Origin: Acidobacteriota bacterium
Lineage (GTDB): Bacteria; Acidobacteriota; Terriglobia; UBA7540
Direction of reading: 5' to 3'
Assembly (NCBI GenBank): GCA_021789565.1
Contig: JAJYJL010000356.1
Span: forward strand, 1-7,514
Length of the DNA: 7,514 nt
A program made the translations under genes and the position numbers. The notes under the pieces were generated by a model, which did not search any database, had not been told where the DNA came from, and worked only from the letters and a program-made list of their open reading frames with translations. This document shows, piece by piece, positions 1,505 through 7,514 of the stretch (position 1 is the stretch's first letter; each line of letters begins with the position of its first letter).

Positions 1505-1933
1505 TTACGCCCTGTGGACAATCTTTTGAGAGAGACCCTGGCTGAGAAAGAGCTCTCCAACGGCGACCTGATGGACCGCCGTAGCCAGGTCTTCCACCGC
1601 ACGACTCTTCAGAATGTAACCGCGCACTCCGGCCTCCAGTGCCTCAAGTACGTAGTGATATTCACGGTGAACAGTAAGAATAATGGTGCGCGCCTGGGGA
1701 ATAGTTTTCCGAATCTGGCGGGCGGCTGCTATTCCATTCAGGTGGGGCATTGACAGATCGAGGAGGATAACATCCGGTCGAAACCTCTCGGCCAACGACA
1801 CGGCCTGTTGCCCGTCAGAGGCCTCAACAATGACTTCAAAACCCTGCCGCTCAAGGAGAGCTTTCAGGCTTCGTCTTACGGGAGCATTGTCGTCGGCCAA
1901 CAAGAGTCGCAATGCCATCAGTGAATCAAACAC
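1505..1933 (-). CDS. Receiver-only response regulator (no HTH)
   Basis: The protein is a CheY-like receiver domain most similar to NarL/FixJ-family regulators. It has the acidic pair D14-D15, phosphoacceptor D59 in a D-L-S-M-P motif, T87 and K109. It stops at residue 142 just where the linker to the helix-turn-helix would begin, and no HTH can be read in any minus-strand frame of the 153 bases beyond the stop. By hand alignment about 70 of 137 residues match the receiver of the full regulator at 2259-2891. Translation starts at the GTG at 1933, with GAGG close upstream, or at the ATG at 1918, which better matches the start of that paralogue. A protein of this form could be a phosphate sink, a protein-binding output, or a truncated duplicate. 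Its partner kinase may be the one at 2863-4194; that is an inference. Confidence 0.92.
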   Translation of the reverse strand: MFDSLMALRLLLADDNAPVRRSLKALLERQGFEVIVEASDGQQAVSLAERFRPDVILLDLSMPHLNGIAAARQIRKTIPQARTIILTVHREYHYVLEALEAGVRGYILKSRAVEDLATAVHQVAVGELFLSQGLSQKIVHRA

Positions 1934-1985
1934 TTTCCTCGGTCCTGGTTATAATCTCCTCCCTGCATCCCAGAACAGAAGGACC

Positions 1986-1998
1986 CCCTGAGGCAGGG
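1986..1998. repeat. Short GC hairpin CCCTG-AGG-CAGGG
   Basis: Five perfect G:C-rich base pairs enclose a 3-base loop, with flanking GA/TC (1982-1983 and 1999-2000) able to extend it across a 2-base bulge. It lies 53 bases or more upstream of the GTG at 1933, within a probable leader of the receiver-only gene on the minus strand. There is no clear T-run on either side, so it is not a canonical intrinsic terminator. Confidence 0.4.
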
Positions 1999-2024
1999 TC
2001 TTAAAGTTTCCTCGTGGCACACTT

Positions 2025-2037
2025 ACAGGCAGCCTGT
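2025..2037. promoter_or_regulatory. Candidate operator: ACAGGC-A-GCCTGT
   Basis: This is a perfect 13-base dyad with 6-base arms. It lies 91 bases upstream of the GTG at 1933. Its ACAGG/CCTGT half-sites recur in the dyad at 7050-7064 upstream of the AAA+ gene, with a different centre length. The binding protein is unknown; the regulatory role is inferred only from symmetry and position. Confidence 0.35.
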
Positions 2038-2082
2038 CGTTCTCTGCAACTCGGAAGGTCCAATACCGTTACACAGAAACCC

Positions 2083-2109
2083 TGCACCGCCTTTACAGCG
2101 GTTCGTGCA
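2083..2109. repeat. Imperfect dyad TGCAC-CGC ... GCG-GTGCA
   Basis: Outer arms TGCAC (2083-2087) and GTGCA (2105-2109) and inner arms CGC (2088-2090) and GCG (2098-2100) pair around the loop CTTTACA, leaving a 4-base bulge GTTC. An alternative pairing is ACCGC (2086-2090) with GCGGT (2098-2102). It could be an operator or RNA hairpin in the spacer; no flanking signal decides between them. Confidence 0.3.
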
Positions 2110-2258
2110 ACGCCGCGCGAGGCGCTCATTTCCGTCGAGTGCTAGCCCATGCTAATTCTCATCCAATAAGCCCGTCAATCCGGTAAAGACCTTAGAAGGC
2201 GCTCCAGAAGTGTAATGAATGAATTGCGGAAAACTACCCAACTACGCTCGCATGGGGG

Positions 2259-2891
2259 TCAGGGCTGGACCAGGCCACGGCGGATAGCGTACCTGACAAG
2301 GCTAGCCGTTTCATGGACATCGAGCTTTTCCATGATTCGTGTCCGGTGCGATTCAGCGGTTTTTACACTGATGTTTAACAAGGCGGCCACTTCCTTGGTG
2401 GTTTTCCCTTCGGCAACCAGCTGCAGAACCTGCAGCTCTCTCGGGCTCAGAGAATCACTGGGCACGTCGACCTTGTTCAGATAAGCGTCCACCACCGTAT
2501 CGGAGATGTCCGAGCTCAGGAAAGTTGATCCCCTGGAAACTTCGCGGATGGCCTGCACCAGTTCTCCGGCGGCGCGGCTTTTGAGCACGTAGCCCCTGAT
2601 TCCTGCCCGCAATGCTTCCAGGACGTACTGGGCTTCTGTGTGCATGGTCAGCACGACCACTTTTGTTGCGGGACTGATCTGGCTGATGGCTTTTGCCGCC
2701 CCGATTCCATTCATCAGAGGCATGGCCAGGTCAAGAACGGCGAGGTCTGGCGTCAATTCCTGGGCCAATCGCGTGGCCTGGTGGCCATCGGAAGCTTCTC
2801 CGACGACCTTGAAACCCTCCTGTTCCAGGAGGGCCTTCAGTCCCTGGCGGACCATTTGGTGATCATCTGCCAGAAGGATACGTATAGGCAT
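2259..2891 (-). CDS. NarL/FixJ-family response regulator
   Basis: This is a complete 210-residue two-component regulator. The receiver domain occupies about residues 1-120, with D9-D10, phosphoacceptor D54 in D-L-A-M-P, T82 and K104. A LuxR-type helix-turn-helix covers about residues 147-206, recognisable from S-P-R-E-L at 149-153 and the K-T-A-E-S-H-R segment at 177-183. The ATG at 2889-2891 is supported by GGAGGG at 2897-2902, five bases upstream. The start lies inside the end of the histidine kinase gene (29-base overlap), so the two are translationally coupled and this is the expected cognate regulator. On phosphorylation it should dimerise and bind DNA in the cytoplasm. It is the last gene of the rsb operon and therefore the probable transcriptional output of the stressosome. 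Its targets cannot be read from the window. Confidence 0.97.
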   Translation of the reverse strand: MPIRILLADDHQMVRQGLKALLEQEGFKVVGEASDGHQATRLAQELTPDLAVLDLAMPLMNGIGAAKAISQISPATKVVVLTMHTEAQYVLEALRAGIRGYVLKSRAAGELVQAIREVSRGSTFLSSDISDTVVDAYLNKVDVPSDSLSPRELQVLQLVAEGKTTKEVAALLNISVKTAESHRTRIMEKLDVHETASLVRYAIRRGLVQP

Positions 2892-4194
2892 CTTTGCCCT
2901 CCGAAGGAACCAAGACTGAAATTTCCGTGCCTTTCCCGGGACTGGAATTAATTATACATTCGCCGCGCAGGGGAATCACCCGTTCTCTTATTCCGATAAG
3001 TCCCAGTCCAGACCTTCCTTTCTGTCCCAGGACGGACTGGACATCGAAGCCGGCACCGTCATCGGTTACAGTCAAATGGATTTTGCTGTCTTCCTTTTGC
3101 AGCCGGACGGCAACGTAGTTGGCCCCGGAATGTTTAGTGATATTGTTCAGGGCCTCCTGGGTAATTCGATACAGGGCGACCTCCACCTGTGCGGGCAAGC
3201 GCCCGCCCGTATCCCCTTCAACGGTGATCCGAATTCCGAATCTTTTTGAAACGCCCTGCGCCAGGAATTCGAGCGCCGGAATCAGTCCCAGATCATCCAG
3301 GATGGTCGGCCGCAACTCATGGGAGAGGCGACGCAATTCAGACTCAATCTGCTCAATCAACTGCTTGATCTCCGTGACGGTCTGCTGGCCGGAAGCCGGG
3401 AGGGACTGGGCCAATCCGTCAATGGCGATATGGACCGACACCAGGAGCTGGCTAGCTTCATCGTGGAGCTCGTGGGCGATGTGCCGTGCACGCTCTTCCA
3501 GTGTTTCATTCAGCCTGTGCAGGGCCTGTTCAGCACGCTTGCGCTCCGAGATGTCGCGCGCAATGCCCTGCACGCCGACAGGCTTGCCCTCGCTCAGAAT
3601 CGGACGGGCGCTAACTTCCACCATGAGCGGGTGCCCGTCTTTGGTGATGATCTCAAATTCCTGCGTCCCACCGCCGCCGCCGCTGATCAGTTCCTGGAAC
3701 ATCCTTGCTGCGCGCTCGAAATATTCCAGTGCCAGAACTTTTACAGGGATGGGCGGGGGTTCATCCCGTCGATACCCGGTGAGTCTTTCCCCGGCCCTGT
3801 TGATCGAGGTGAGCCGGCCCTCAAAATCCGTGGTGAAAACGATATCGTTGGCGTTTTCGAACAACTCACGGTAGCGTTCTTCACTGGCCTGCAGCGCGGC
3901 GTTTGTCTCCCGGTAGCCGCTGATCGTCATTTCATAGGGGGCAAGGCTTTCGATCAGGAATTTTGCCGACGACTTCAACATATCGGAAAAATCCTGGATT
4001 TGGGGCATGCTTGAAACGACCTGGCCAAGGGCATCGCAATGGAGTGTCACCATTTCGATGAGACTGGTTTCGTGGCTCAGACCGCGGCGTCCCAGTTCAT
4101 AGGCAACTTCCAGTGCCGCTTCGTCTGTTTTTTCCAGGTAAGTCCGCAACGCCGAAGTGTAGGCGTTCATGAGTTCGCGTTGGCCGGTTTTCAT
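2863..4194 (-). CDS. Histidine kinase: RsbU-like N-domain, PAS, HisKA_3, HATPase
   Basis: This is a 443-residue cytoplasmic kinase with no membrane segment. Residues 1-95 are helical and resemble the RsbT-binding N-terminal domain of Bacillus RsbU: a Y-x-x-x-L-x-x-Y-L start, an A-Y-E-L-G-R-R segment (31-37), an I-E-M-V-T-L-H segment (46-52) and K-F-L-I-E-S-L at 78-84. A PAS domain follows (about 103-217), with a run of five glycines at 172-176. The dimerisation/phosphoacceptor domain is HisKA_3, with E-L-H-D and predicted phospho-His H244. The ATPase has E347/N351 in the N-box, D378-D-G-A-G at the G1 box and a Gly-rich G2 box at 393-398. The ATG at 4192-4194 shares ATGA with the rsbX stop and has CAAGGGAG six bases upstream. 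The gene sits between rsbX and its regulator. Kinase identity is firm; RsbT as the activator is inferred from the N-domain and the operon. Confidence 0.95.
   Translation of the reverse strand: MKTGQRELMNAYTSALRTYLEKTDEAALEVAYELGRRGLSHETSLIEMVTLHCDALGQVVSSMPQIQDFSDMLKSSAKFLIESLAPYEMTISGYRETNAALQASEERYRELFENANDIVFTTDFEGRLTSINRAGERLTGYRRDEPPPIPVKVLALEYFERAARMFQELISGGGGGTQEFEIITKDGHPLMVEVSARPILSEGKPVGVQGIARDISERKRAEQALHRLNETLEERARHIAHELHDEASQLLVSVHIAIDGLAQSLPASGQQTVTEIKQLIEQIESELRRLSHELRPTILDDLGLIPALEFLAQGVSKRFGIRITVEGDTGGRLPAQVEVALYRITQEALNNITKHSGANYVAVRLQKEDSKIHLTVTDDGAGFDVQSVLGQKGRSGLGLIGIRERVIPLRGECIINSSPGKGTEISVLVPSEGKDAYTYPSGR
2897..2902 (-). promoter_or_regulatory. Ribosome binding site of the NarL-type regulator
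   Basis: GGAGGG on the minus strand lies five bases before the ATG at 2891, inside the end of the kinase gene. It fixes the regulator start. Confidence 0.7.
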
Positions 4195-4808
4195 CGCGGT
4201 CTCCCTTGATAGGTGGCAACAACCACGAGTGCGTCATCTGTCTCCAGCCCGTCTCGCGAAAGAATGGCTTGCGCGGTCTTTTCGGCCCTGTCGAACAGGA
4301 CCATGCCGTCTTCGAAGCCTCGCCGGATGCCGTCCGTTGCCAGAACTATCGTGTCTCCTGGGGCGACCTTCACTGCCGTGGCGCGCAACGCAGGAAAGTG
4401 AATGCCGACAACTCCCTGGGATAATAACAAAAACTCATGCAAGCGATTCCCATCGGCTCCGAAGCGCACCAGCAGGCCTGCAACATTCCCTACGCCCAGC
4501 CATTCCATTGAATCTTCCACCCCATCGAGAAGAGCCACGCTCATCACGACCCCCCGTGTATCGCGCAGCCTGCGGCTGCAATGTTCGAGGATCCTGACCA
4601 GCGCCTCGCCCGAATGCTCGTCGACGGTGCTCAGCGCGAGCGTTGCAGCCTCGTAAGCAGCTTTACCGTGCCCAAGACCGTCTGCGACTGCAATCAGGAC
4701 CTTATTCTCACGCTGCTTGACCAGATGCAGATCCCCGGACAGGGTTTCACCCTGCATCTGCTTGCCTGCCACACCCCATTCGACAAAGCCTTGATTCATT
4801 CCTTCCAT
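4191..4808 (-). CDS. rsbX: RsbX-like PP2C phosphatase (SpoIIE family)
   Basis: This is a 205-residue stand-alone phosphatase domain of the RsbX type, without the N-terminal domain that RsbU carries. Metal-binding acidic positions are visible as G25-D26, A42-D43-G-L-G-H-G48, T158-D159-G and T190-D191-D192. A G-V-G-N motif at 105-108 matches the family core. RsbX dephosphorylates RsbR and RsbS, so that RsbT is recaptured and the stress signal ends. The start is ambiguous. The ATG at 4808 overlaps rsbT by 13 bases; the ATG at 4799 would make an ATGA overlap with the rsbT stop, like the junction at the other end of this gene. Neither has an ideally spaced ribosome binding site. The position directly after rsbT is the usual one for rsbX. 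A looser PP2C function cannot be excluded. Confidence 0.9.
   Translation of the reverse strand: MEGMNQGFVEWGVAGKQMQGETLSGDLHLVKQRENKVLIAVADGLGHGKAAYEAATLALSTVDEHSGEALVRILEHCSRRLRDTRGVVMSVALLDGVEDSMEWLGVGNVAGLLVRFGADGNRLHEFLLLSQGVVGIHFPALRATAVKVAPGDTIVLATDGIRRGFEDGMVLFDRAEKTAQAILSRDGLETDDALVVVATYQGRPR
4201..4208 (-). promoter_or_regulatory. Ribosome binding site of the histidine kinase
   Basis: CAAGGGAG on the minus strand lies six bases before the ATG at 4194, inside the end of the rsbX-like gene. It supports both the start and independent loading on top of the ATGA overlap. Confidence 0.7.
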
Positions 4809-5206
4809 TTGATGGCGGTTACGGTTGTCCCACGTCCCTTGTGGGAAACGATGGCGAACTCGTCCATCATTCGCCGGACACCGGGCAAGCCGAGACCTAG
4901 CCCGCCGGAGGTGGAATAACCGTCCTTAAGCACGGCTTCGACGTCCGGAATGCCGGGGCCTTCATCTTCGGCCTGGATAACGATGCCTTTCCTGGGCTCC
5001 TTGTTGATAGCCCAGCAAATGATGCTTCCGTTTCTTGCATAAAGCAGGAGGTTTCGCGCCAACTCCGAGATCGAAGTCGCGATCACTGCAAGGTCCGAGG
5101 GCCCAAAGCCCAGGCGGACACCCAGTTCGCGCCCTTCCTGGCGGGCCGCGAGGATGTCTTCATCGGACTTGATCAATACTCGAACTTCATTTCCCGTAAC
5201 GGCCAT
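4796..5206 (-). CDS. rsbT: Switch kinase RsbT
   Basis: This is a 136-residue GHKL-fold serine/threonine kinase. It matches Bacillus RsbT along its length: the D-I-L-A-A-R-Q segment (17-23), I-S-E-L-A-R-N (46-52, with N52 as the magnesium ligand), A-E-D-E-G-P-G-I-P-D (79-88) and the ATP lid S-T-S-G-G-L-G-L-G-L-P-G (98-109), ending in A-I-K-W (131-134). RsbT is held in the stressosome, phosphorylates RsbS and RsbR on stress, and then leaves to activate its downstream partner. The ATG at 5204-5206 gives the same N-terminus as Bacillus RsbT. The frame is open to 5314, but that part overlaps rsbS and reads as a shadow. The start lies 20 bases inside rsbS with no clear ribosome binding site, suggesting translational coupling. 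No RsbU gene is visible; the nearest candidate partner is the kinase at 2863-4194. Confidence 0.96.
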   Translation of the reverse strand: MAVTGNEVRVLIKSDEDILAARQEGRELGVRLGFGPSDLAVIATSISELARNLLLYARNGSIICWAINKEPRKGIVIQAEDEGPGIPDVEAVLKDGYSTSGGLGLGLPGVRRMMDEFAIVSHKGRGTTVTAIKWKE

Positions 5207-5567
5207 GGTCGATTCGTTTCGTTCTGCGTTCCATGTACTTGAGGCCTTCTTCCAGGTCCAGTACGGTAGCCACACCTTCCAGCTTGAGCCCAAGTTGGAC
5301 CATAGAAAAAGCAACTTCGGGTTGAATGCCGACGATTACCGTCTGTGCCCCACGCAACCTGATCATGCCGGCGATTTCACTAAGGGTCCGGCAGGCGAAT
5401 GAGTCGAGCACGTCCATTGCTGTGACATCGACGATCACGCCCCGGGAGCGGTAGGTTCCAACCTGTTCCGTCAGTGCGTCGCGAAGCACGATCAGGTCGG
5501 CATCCCTCAAAGCTGCCTGCACTGAGGCAATCAGGTAAGGCCCTTGCTTGAGAATTGGAACCTGCAA
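5187..5567 (-). CDS. rsbS: Stressosome scaffold and RsbT antagonist RsbS
   Basis: This is a single STAS domain of 126 residues, the usual size for RsbS. It opens with V-P-I-L-K like the Bacillus protein. It has the V-D-V-T strand (46-49), D55-S56-F57 where S56 corresponds to the serine phosphorylated by RsbT (S59 in Bacillus), and G-I-Q-P-E-V-A (79-85) followed by a D-L-E-E-G-L tail. RsbS and RsbR together form the stressosome, which holds RsbT inactive. The start codon is TTG at 5565-5567, three bases after the rsbR stop, with AGG six bases upstream. The next in-frame Met is internal to the conserved domain, so no ATG alternative exists. The gene overlaps rsbT by 20 bases. Confidence 0.96.
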   Translation of the reverse strand: MQVPILKQGPYLIASVQAALRDADLIVLRDALTEQVGTYRSRGVIVDVTAMDVLDSFACRTLSEIAGMIRLRGAQTVIVGIQPEVAFSMVQLGLKLEGVATVLDLEEGLKYMERRTKRIDHGRYGK

Positions 5568-5570
5568 AGT

Positions 5571-6473
5571 TTACCTGCCTTTCTCGTGTTCAACGGAATC
5601 GTCCATCCGCGTCACCTTAAAGCCCAAAGTCCTGTCAGCCTCTTCGATTCCTTCCCGCAGGTCGCAAACGGTGTTCATCTTGGAAAGATCAACTCCGATC
5701 GTAACCAACGTTTGCGCAATCTCGGGAGACAAGCCCGTAACGATCGCCGTTGCTCCCAGCAGCCGCGCTGCTTCCACCGTCAGAACCAGATGGTTGGCGA
5801 CTGTCGAGTTGATGGACGGGACACCTGTAATGTCGATAACCACTACCTTGGCCCTGTTGGCGCGGATGCCACGCAGGAGCTGTTGCGTTAGCTGGCGCGC
5901 GCGCTGCGGATCGATGACGCCGACGATGGGCAGGATGAGGAGTCCTTCGCGTACGGGCAACACCGGTGTGGAAAGCTCCCGGATGGCGTCCTGCTGCTGG
6001 CGAATGATCCTTTCGCGTTCGTGCACAAACCCGGCAGCAACCGTCACCGTGATCCGTCGTGCGGCAGGCTCAAAAGCATCCAGCATGCGGCTGAGCAACT
6101 CCAGACTGGACTGGCTTAGTTCGAAAAGCGACCGCAGCAGCACGTCCCGCAGGAGAAGAACGATCCCAATGACTTCATCGGTTTCCACACCTCGGGGGAT
6201 GATTCTTTCCGAAAGATTCCGCGCGTAGGCTTCCATGGCCTCAACGTCGCCTGTTTCCAGGACGTTGATGTAATTGTCATAAATGGATGTTGTTTCGGTG
6301 ACGATCTCCTCTTCGGTCATCGCCGACAACATGTGACCTTCGGTGATGCGGCGGGCCCACTCCTCCCGGAGGCGGGTCCTGTTCTTGCGCAGCTGGGCAA
6401 CGAGTTCTGGAAAAACATCGGCGGCCCCGCCTTGCGCACCGGGACGGGGGCTTACTTTCCTGGCCGCAGACAT
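5571..6473 (-). CDS. rsbR: Stressosome sensor RsbR (helical N-domain plus STAS)
   Basis: This is a 300-residue stressosome co-antagonist. Residues about 20-155 are an all-helical sensor domain of the kind seen in RsbRD-type proteins (F-P-E-L at 21-24, R-E-E-W at 36-39, E-R-I-I-P-R-G-V at 89-96). It lacks the appearance of a globin, PAS or transmembrane sensor, so the ligand is unknown. Residues about 165-285 are a STAS domain. The second RsbT target threonine is conserved as T255 in P-E-I-A-Q-T; at the first, the usual Asp-Thr is N222-S223. The ATG at 6471-6473 is fixed by AAGGAGGG at 6482-6489, eight bases upstream. The frame remains open to a GTG at 6563, but that extension ignores the ribosome binding site. 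As the first gene of the operon, it should be transcribed from the spacer at 6474-7156. Confidence 0.94.
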   Translation of the reverse strand: MSAARKVSPRPGAQGGAADVFPELVAQLRKNRTRLREEWARRITEGHMLSAMTEEEIVTETTSIYDNYINVLETGDVEAMEAYARNLSERIIPRGVETDEVIGIVLLLRDVLLRSLFELSQSSLELLSRMLDAFEPAARRITVTVAAGFVHERERIIRQQQDAIRELSTPVLPVREGLLILPIVGVIDPQRARQLTQQLLRGIRANRAKVVVIDITGVPSINSTVANHLVLTVEAARLLGATAIVTGLSPEIAQTLVTIGVDLSKMNTVCDLREGIEEADRTLGFKVTRMDDSVEHEKGR

Positions 6474-6489: not shown

Positions 6490-6943
6490 GTTTGTATGTA
6501 CTTTTCATTCCGGCCATGGCATGTCCCATAGCAATGCAGCCGTGAAGTCTTGTAAACCTGCACCTTGGTTTGAGCATGGGTATGTCAAAATACGGGTACT
6601 CGCCATTGTCATCAGGCTACCTTACGGCCCGGTGGCCCGACTGTATGGTTTTGAGCAAGTCAGCACCCCGGCGAAATGCGGACGTAATGAACGCTAGCTA
6701 GCTCCGCCCGTTATTTTAACGTTTAGAGTTTTGCGCTTTATGGGGCAACGTGTCAAATGCTTTTGATTGGCCGCCTCCCTGGGACCCCAATGCCGGAAAT
6801 CACGAGCACCCTCATCGTAGAACAGGGCGCAACTCCCGGTTGGTTCCCGGGTAGAGACCACCTGCCCTTGCATGGCTTGCCGCGTCCTCAAAAAAGAGAA
6901 TCGCCACGCCGGCAAGTTGCTGGCGCAATCTGCAAAACATTTC

Positions 6944-7148: not shown

Positions 7149-7156
7149 TAGTGCAG

Positions 7157-7514
7157 ATGGCCGGAGCTTTTGCGGCTGTTACAACTCGTTATGGAATACT
7201 GCCTCCCGACGAGGTGGTATTTGGTTCCTCAGGCGCTATGGGCGAAGTTCGGACCAAGCTTGAAAAAGTGGCTTGTACCGACGCTCCTGTCCTGATCCGG
7301 GGAGAGGCCGGGACTGGCAAAGAGTTCTTAGCCAGGCTCATTCACAAGAGATATCCCGGGGAGAGTACACCGTTTCATAAAGTGACTCCTGCGGGTAGGG
7401 TCGGATGGCGGAAGAGCGCTAGTTTTGTGTTTCCCAAGGACGAGGCCGGCGGCGCCAACGGTAATGGCCACTCCCGGCCAGGGGATTCCGTTAGACCCGG
7501 TTGTATCGGTACGC
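7157..7514 (+). CDS. NtrC-type AAA+ ATPase, partial (3' end beyond window)
   Basis: The first 119 residues are readable from the ATG at 7157, without an N-terminal receiver or sensor domain. V21-F-G-S-S and the following helix match the start of a sigma-54 activator ATPase domain. Walker A is G49-E-A-G-T-G-K55-E, followed by L-A-R-L-I-H at 58-63 and P-F-H-K-V at 72-76. The next part is unusually divergent: the position of the GAFTGA loop that contacts sigma-54 reads D95-E-A-G-G-A100. After a segment rich in Gly and Arg the frame reaches G-T at 118-119, where G-T-L-F-L-D-E (Walker B) would be expected, then the window ends. The AAA+ family is well supported. A sigma-54 activator role is doubtful with this loop. 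It is divergent from the rsb operon, so a functional link is possible but unproven. Confidence 0.83.
   Translation, partial: MAGAFAAVTTRYGILPPDEVVFGSSGAMGEVRTKLEKVACTDAPVLIRGEAGTGKEFLARLIHKRYPGESTPFHKVTPAGRVGWRKSASFVFPKDEAGGANGNGHSRPGDSVRPGCIGT

Follow-up and report, generated by a model that had tools for sequence, protein, structure and literature searches.

A stressosome operon from an acidobacterium with a probable two-component output through an RsbU-type docking domain on its histidine kinase

In Bacillus, the switch protein RsbT binds and activates RsbU through the domain RsbU_N of the latter (PMC12143880). The same paper (2025) already proposed that RsbT controls histidine kinases via RsbU_N, with the Gammaproteobacteria kinase MBI3545564.1 as a published example of the domain. 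A survey from 2022 (PMC9237108) distinguished eleven architectures downstream of the stressosome genes, some with RsbU_N, and counted HisKA/REC phosphorelays among the outputs. Here we analysed 7,514 nucleotides of contig JAJYJL010000356.1 from an Acidobacteriota bacterium (the window), in which six minus-strand genes follow one another in the order rsbR-rsbS-rsbT-rsbX-histidine kinase-response regulator. We consider it likely that they form a stressosome with a two-component output, in which RsbT docks on an RsbU_N domain of the kinase and thereby switches it.

The N-terminus of the kinase matched RsbU_N (PF08673) in Pfam with an expectation value (E) of 8.7e-14 and a score of 51.9 bits, against a curated cut-off of 25.5. 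A profile of 31 such N-termini retrieved the Bacillus RsbU N-domain structures 2j70, 2j6z, 1w53 and 2j6y (E 1.4e-8 to 5e-7) and no other solved structure below 0.04. The domain assignment comes from these sequence profiles; fold searches with the whole kinase model were dominated by the kinase and PAS domains. The first-pass annotation had suggested that released RsbT acts on the histidine kinase, yet it missed the RsbU_N domain at the start of that protein. The domain supports the suggestion: it offers RsbT a likely place to dock on the kinase, which makes this the best-supported mechanism. At its C-terminus the protein carries HisKA_3 and HATPase_c, and the PP2C/SpoIIE domain of RsbU is not present (Pfam); the kinase may resemble RsbU at the input end, yet it is no RsbU. 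A histidine kinase that bears RsbU_N and shares an operon with rsbT and the stressosome genes corresponds to the published definition of such a system (PMC12143880).

The contacts reported for the Bacillus proteins involve Glu24 and Tyr28 of RsbU, Ile74 and Ile78 of the other RsbU subunit, and Arg19, Arg23 and Asn24 of RsbT (PMC12143880). Glu25 of the kinase is the equivalent of RsbU Glu24 and was invariant in all 65 aligned proteins, as were Gly35 and Arg36; the equivalent of RsbU Arg91 lies at kinase position 98. On the side of RsbT, the position of Arg19 was occupied by Arg in 81/81 loci and that of Arg23 by Arg in 79 and by Lys in the other two. In the structure model of the kinase (mean predicted local distance difference test score 86.9), a single helix of residues 69-114 runs from RsbU_N into the PAS domain.

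In the mechanism that we favour, RsbR and RsbS would form the sensory core and hold RsbT. Under stress, RsbT would phosphorylate the core and then depart, as is known in Bacillus and inferred here. Free RsbT would bind RsbU_N at the N-terminus of the histidine kinase and stiffen the helix leading into the PAS domain and the kinase core, by which kinase activity would be switched, most likely on. Phosphate would then pass to the NarL-type regulator and alter transcription of its regulon, and RsbX would reset the core. The catalytic residues of these proteins are in place. RsbT has intact ATP-binding motifs (the N-box Glu, Arg and Asn and the Asp of DxGxG, in 81/81 loci), and the features of a HisKA_3/NarL-type two-component system are present, namely the likely HisKA_3 phospho-acceptor His244, the N-box Asn351, the receiver Asp54 and a GerE domain in the partner.

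For comparison, relatives were picked by RsbS similarity (the best 80 of 87 confirmed loci, or 81 with the window), and the locus counts describe this RsbS-chosen branch, not stressosomes at large. The sampled loci, many of them from metagenome-assembled genomes (MAGs), were labelled Acidobacteriota, Rokuibacteriota, Pseudomonadota, Verrucomicrobiota, Nitrospirota, Planctomycetota, Chloroflexota, Actinomycetota, Bacillota and archaea. A profile of the N-domain found 75 RsbU_N-like open reading frames (ORFs) beside rsbRST in 74 of the 81 loci, 73 of them on the same strand and downstream of the rsbT start; L069 has two, one of which lies upstream on the same strand, and the ORF of L025 is divergent. 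Among the seven loci without RsbU_N, three (L006, L011 and L028) stop within 600 bases of rsbT. Pfam was run on 65 of the 75 profile-found ORFs (E up to 0.001), a set that is not unbiased, and listed RsbU_N in 65, HATPase_c in 62, HisKA_3 in 41, HisKA in 15, SpoIIE in 5, and HisKA_2 and GGDEF in one each; for L067 and L025, RsbU_N was not listed at E 0.0001. In at least one of the 62 HATPase_c proteins (L072), the ATPase is an addition to a SpoIIE protein. When scanned singly, two loci of Methanoperedens-type archaea (L063, L058) showed HisKA hybrids with receivers, L012 showed HisKA_2, L078 and L065 showed SpoIIE, L080 (Formivibrio) showed an RsbU_N-PAS-GGDEF-EAL protein, and two Actinomycetota (L072, 9394-11562; L076, 9423-11180) showed RsbU_N-PAS-SpoIIE-HATPase_c_2 proteins. 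In the latter two, a single chain unites the docking domain with a phosphatase and a kinase of the anti-sigma type. Many of the proteins from acidobacterial relatives have about 325 residues, and that of L030, scanned singly, has no PAS; because a PAS domain is present in the window's kinase and has no counterpart in L030, the former would have an extra input.

The gene order is the same in the nearest relative (L001) and at loci that carry the labels of many other phyla, and kinase and regulator were not regularly apart from rsbRSTX. HisKA_3 was assigned to 50 loci, partly through similarity to the window's kinase core and not through Pfam, and in 45 of the 47 such loci with at least 650 downstream bases a regulator-like ORF adjoins the kinase (in L018 it has 135 residues only). 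Of the two exceptions, L035 has a short ORF with a receiver-like start, judged by eye, and L064 has RsbU_N (2799-3236) and a PAS-PAS-HisKA_3 kinase (3233-4627) as separate, overlapping ORFs with a regulator after them. The arrangement in L064 could reflect the splitting of a gene, a frameshift or a docking subunit that stands alone.

Several observations weigh against docking of RsbT on the kinase. At the interface, RsbU Tyr28 is replaced by Glu29, a variable position, and Ile78 by Ala85; Ile74 is retained as Ile81 in the window but is mostly Ala in relatives, and the equivalent of RsbT Asn24 is Glu in the window and variable across loci. Judged from the alignments, the predicted docking interface is one in which the charged contacts are retained and the remaining reported contacts lost. 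When the window is compared with L001, constraint on the kinase is weakest in RsbU_N, with a ratio of nonsynonymous to synonymous substitution rates (dN/dS) of 0.179 for residues 1-98, compared to 0.109 for 99-225 and 0.051 for 226-443. The predicted template modelling score of the kinase model is only 0.47, so that the model does not fix the domain arrangement. L045 and L047 combine a stressosome with a kinase without RsbU_N, and L052 and L066 showed no RsbU_N at all in the fetched loci, so that the domain is not indispensable. Finally, no binding or kinase assay for such an RsbU_N histidine kinase was found in the passages of the literature covered, and in Vibrio vulnificus an interaction of RsbT with the downstream protein VvD1, which is without RsbU_N, was not detected (PMC9237108). 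If the wiring is kept, the main competing reading is serine/threonine phosphorylation of the kinase by RsbT in place of docking. For downstream kinases that have no RsbU_N, phosphorylation has been proposed in print (PMC9237108), and the kinases of L045 and L047 likewise are without the domain; in Moorella, RsbT is said to phosphorylate its target cyclase (PMC4976288), which has an RsbU N-terminal domain (PMC12143880). However, the window's kinase does have RsbU_N, and a cited paper states in its title that in Bacillus the switch protein can activate its target phosphatase without serine kinase activity, and we regard phosphorylation of the kinase as improbable. Less improbable, though still unlikely, is that RsbT turns the kinase off or its phosphatase activity on, in which case stress would lower phosphorylation of the regulator. 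In kinases of this class, a DxxxQ motif after the phospho-accepting histidine goes along with phosphatase activity; the H-box of the window's kinase reads HDEASQ, and Gln stands at the final place in 42 of the 65 aligned proteins, non-HisKA_3 ones included. The best-studied precedent, RsbU, is nevertheless activated by RsbT, and the passage on the Moorella cyclase speaks of 'control' by RsbT and the domain only, with the sign not stated (PMC12143880). The PAS domain between RsbU_N and the kinase core, an extra input compared to L030, would also suit a kinase and regulator that serve mainly their own PAS signal, with the stressosome as a minor or second input and the shared operon as mere co-regulation. 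This is quite improbable in our view, as it leaves RsbU_N purposeless, and the domain was constant in 65/65 scanned proteins (a set found by RsbU_N).

It is very improbable that RsbT really targets a sigma factor's classical partner-switch encoded at another place in the genome. Genome-wide absence was tested in the genomes of relatives, chiefly in that of L001 (G001); many of these genomes, including G001, are MAGs and possibly incomplete. PF08673 gave 46 matches in 45 of 50 relatives' genomes, one each in 44 and two in one, and all 46 map to ORFs beside rsbRST. The genomes of L006, L045, L047, L052 and L066 had no match, and among 14 control genomes the domain was found in Bacillus subtilis only. 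The single match in G001 is the operon's kinase, and no second RsbU-like docking partner appeared in the searched genomes, G001 included. An RsbU homologue elsewhere, which would have spoken against the kinase as target of RsbT, was thus not found in the possibly incomplete MAG of the nearest relative. No sigma factor passed the TIGR02980 (SigB/F/G) cut-off in 42 relatives' genomes, compared to 1 of 14 controls, although sub-cut-off matches were numerous. Searches for SpoIIE, HATPase_c_2 and STAS were confined to G001 and gave 10, 7 and 8 matches over cut-off, respectively, operon genes included. Some of these could be parts of a partner-switch: in a stretch of the nearest relative (L103), an RsbW-like and STAS pair (1465-1950 and 1877-2269, plus strand) converges on an opposite-strand sigma gene (2433-3371, minus strand) of the FliA/WhiG family (218.1 bits, cut-off 189.6). 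The other SpoIIE proteins of this genome, however, are without detectable RsbU_N. The first-pass statement that sigma and anti-sigma genes are missing was limited to the window, where there is no rsbV, rsbW or sigB; for anti-sigma genes it cannot be extended to the genome because the nearest relative has other RsbW/RsbV-like genes, besides the FliA/WhiG-type sigma gene. Docking of RsbT on the kinase is our preferred reading, and the single RsbU_N match in the genome of the nearest relative makes this a clean case for a direct test of the proposed RsbT-to-kinase control.

The ORF coordinates (Table 1) bear out the gene order of the first-pass annotation and its junctions of +3, -20, -13, -4 and -29 bases; the rsbT/rsbX junction is -4 instead of -13 if rsbX starts at the second ATG. 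The overlapping genes point to a single transcript for all six. The mechanical ORF of rsbR begins farther upstream, at 6563, and the TTG start of rsbS places its residue 1 opposite residue 1 of solved RsbS in the alignment. Searches of Pfam, NCBIfam and solved structures agree with the gene names. RsbR matched a solved RsbR structure with E 1.7e-31 and has the N-terminal sensor and C-terminal STAS of a stressosome module, its sensor being nearest RsbRD_N (22.2 bits, under the cut-off of 24.3). RsbS matched solved RsbS (E 8.2e-24), and RsbX matched 3zt9, deposited as a SpoIIE-type phosphatase (E 1.1e-17), and solved RsbX (3.2e-10). The longer ORF of RsbT matched HATPase_c (37.9 bits) and HATPase_c_2 in Pfam and, among solved structures, only anti-sigma-F factor (E 2.3e-5); RsbT was named on these two families, its motifs and its position in the operon.

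Table 1 Genes of the operon and domains of its histidine kinase in the window
Feature	Position	Strand	Description
rsbR	5571-6473	-	N-terminal helical sensor domain with globin-like fold (model) and STAS
rsbS	5187-5567	-	TTG start; stand-alone STAS; conserved Ser56 of DSF motif
rsbT	4796-5206	-	GHKL switch kinase; in-frame ATG within ORF 4796-5314
rsbX	4191-4808	-	RsbX-like PP2C/SpoIIE-type feedback phosphatase
Histidine kinase	2863-4194	-	RsbU_N-PAS-HisKA_3-HATPase_c, 443 residues; likely phospho-acceptor His244 (Pfam)
RsbU_N (PF08673)	3928-4164	-	Kinase residues 11-89; predicted RsbT docking site
PAS	3550-3879	-	Kinase residues 106-215; possible second input
HisKA_3 and HATPase_c core	2902-3486	-	Kinase residues 237-431
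NarL-type response regulator	2259-2891	-	Receiver with Asp54 and GerE DNA-binding domain (Pfam)

The window and L001 share 86.7% DNA identity across 6868 alignment columns, and dN/dS between them is 0.11 for rsbR, 0.127 for rsbS, 0.05 for rsbT, 0.222 for rsbX, 0.092 for the kinase and 0.062 for the regulator. All six genes look functional by these ratios. The conserved order in L001, the low dN/dS and the occurrence of such loci across many phylum labels argue that the operon is more than a chance arrangement. The Ser of the RsbS DSF motif is present in 81/81 loci. For RsbR, we take Thr175 and Thr209 of the Listeria protein to be the phosphorylated sites of Bacillus and Listeria RsbR. The window has Pro189 at the first place and Ser223 at the second, followed by Thr224; canonical threonines are present at neither site, and Ser223 is phosphorylatable. 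Across the 81 loci, the first place is held by Pro in 49, Thr in 14 and Ser in 10, and the second by Ser in 37, Val in 22, Ala in 12 and Thr in 3. Pro at the first place often goes together with Val or Ala at the second, and a Thr at the very next residue is common. In 38 loci neither place is Ser or Thr, yet loss of control is not shown, because in 35 of them the residue right after the second place is Ser or Thr. The assignment of a stressosome module stands despite these sites, the two threonines not being held to be required of every stressosome.

To follow the outputs, we used a quick tree of RsbS and RsbT (80 rows; supported by the Shimodaira-Hasegawa-like approximate likelihood-ratio test only), in which 30 of 77 inner branches are open and long branches make the deep forks unsure. 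Output labels were given to 75 rows, in part by analogy to relatives that had been scanned. The six labels, one of which is 'kinase without RsbU_N', need at least nine changes on this tree, and 73 of the 75 rows with a label have RsbU_N. The output label shifts while RsbU_N stays in nearly all labelled rows, as expected for a docking plug, which suggests that the domain that docks the stressosome output is kept while the output enzyme changes. Ten loci from archaeal records (L024, L033, L040, L041, L051, L053, L056, L058, L059 and L063) are stressosome operons with RsbU_N proteins; several are named Methanoperedens, and all ten form one starred clade.

A broader reading that joins these results is possible, though we hold it only tentatively. 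RsbU_N would be a portable output plug of the stressosome, and phosphotransfer, not a sigma factor, would be the main stressosome output across much of the bacteria, as well as in Methanoperedens-type archaea. In this branch, the RsbR core would perhaps do without canonical phospho-threonines, with the switch then possibly depending on RsbS phosphorylation alone, and through its PAS domain the window's kinase would integrate two signals. Counter to switching by RsbS only, the Ser or Thr one residue after the second RsbR place in 35 of 38 loci could stand in.

The surroundings of the operon hold further regulatory genes. A receiver-only response regulator lies downstream of it (window 1505-1933, minus strand; L001 11635-12063, plus strand), and its ORF is intact in both (dN/dS 0.109). 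We considered it as a full second regulator and rejected this, since no DNA-binding domain was seen by eye beyond the ORF in three frames of the window and L001. At least two regulator-like ORFs of more than 150 residues lie on the operon strand of the fetched stretch in 20 of the 74 RsbU_N loci; in some, for example L010, the second is nearer to the window's regulator than the adjacent one. Tandem rubrerythrin-like genes occupy 2-595 and 719-1351 of the window (plus strand), and L001 has one at the matching place. Divergent to rsbR lies a gene whose product has a sigma-54 interaction domain (window 7151-7513, plus strand; L001 5368-6408, minus strand, complete there); in L001 it is followed, judged by eye, by another gene of this kind and by exopolysaccharide genes of Wza/Wzc type.

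Among known systems, RsbR-S-T-U-V-W-SigB-X of Bacillus subtilis shares with the window the stressosome core, RsbT, RsbX and RsbU_N; in the window, RsbU_N is fused to a histidine kinase instead of a PP2C phosphatase, and rsbV, rsbW and sigB are absent from the window. The rsbRSTX-VvD1-VvD2 operon of Vibrio vulnificus likewise sets a stressosome beside a two-component system (PMC9237108, PMC10014275), but VvD1 is without RsbU_N and the predicted output is cyclic di-GMP (PMC10014275). In Moorella thermoacetica, RsbU_N is also plugged onto another output enzyme, an RsbU_N-GAF-GGDEF cyclase (PMC12143880), whose output is cyclic di-GMP, whereas that of the window would be phosphotransfer. The operons described from Proteobacteria are alike in that rsbRSTX is closely trailed by signalling proteins, some with RsbU_N (PMC9237108, PMC12143880). 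In contrast to these, the window is acidobacterial by its nearest relative and has a PAS domain between RsbU_N and kinase core; the survey in PMC9237108 was built on heme-globin RsbR, whereas the window's sensor is nearest a different family, under its cut-off. A search of the open-access literature for stressosomes of acidobacteria gave a single paper, a review on blue light; papers of 2005 and 2017 on the RsbRST module may already list acidobacterial cases. The operon is a further case of a published wiring, in a phylum possibly not yet described for it.

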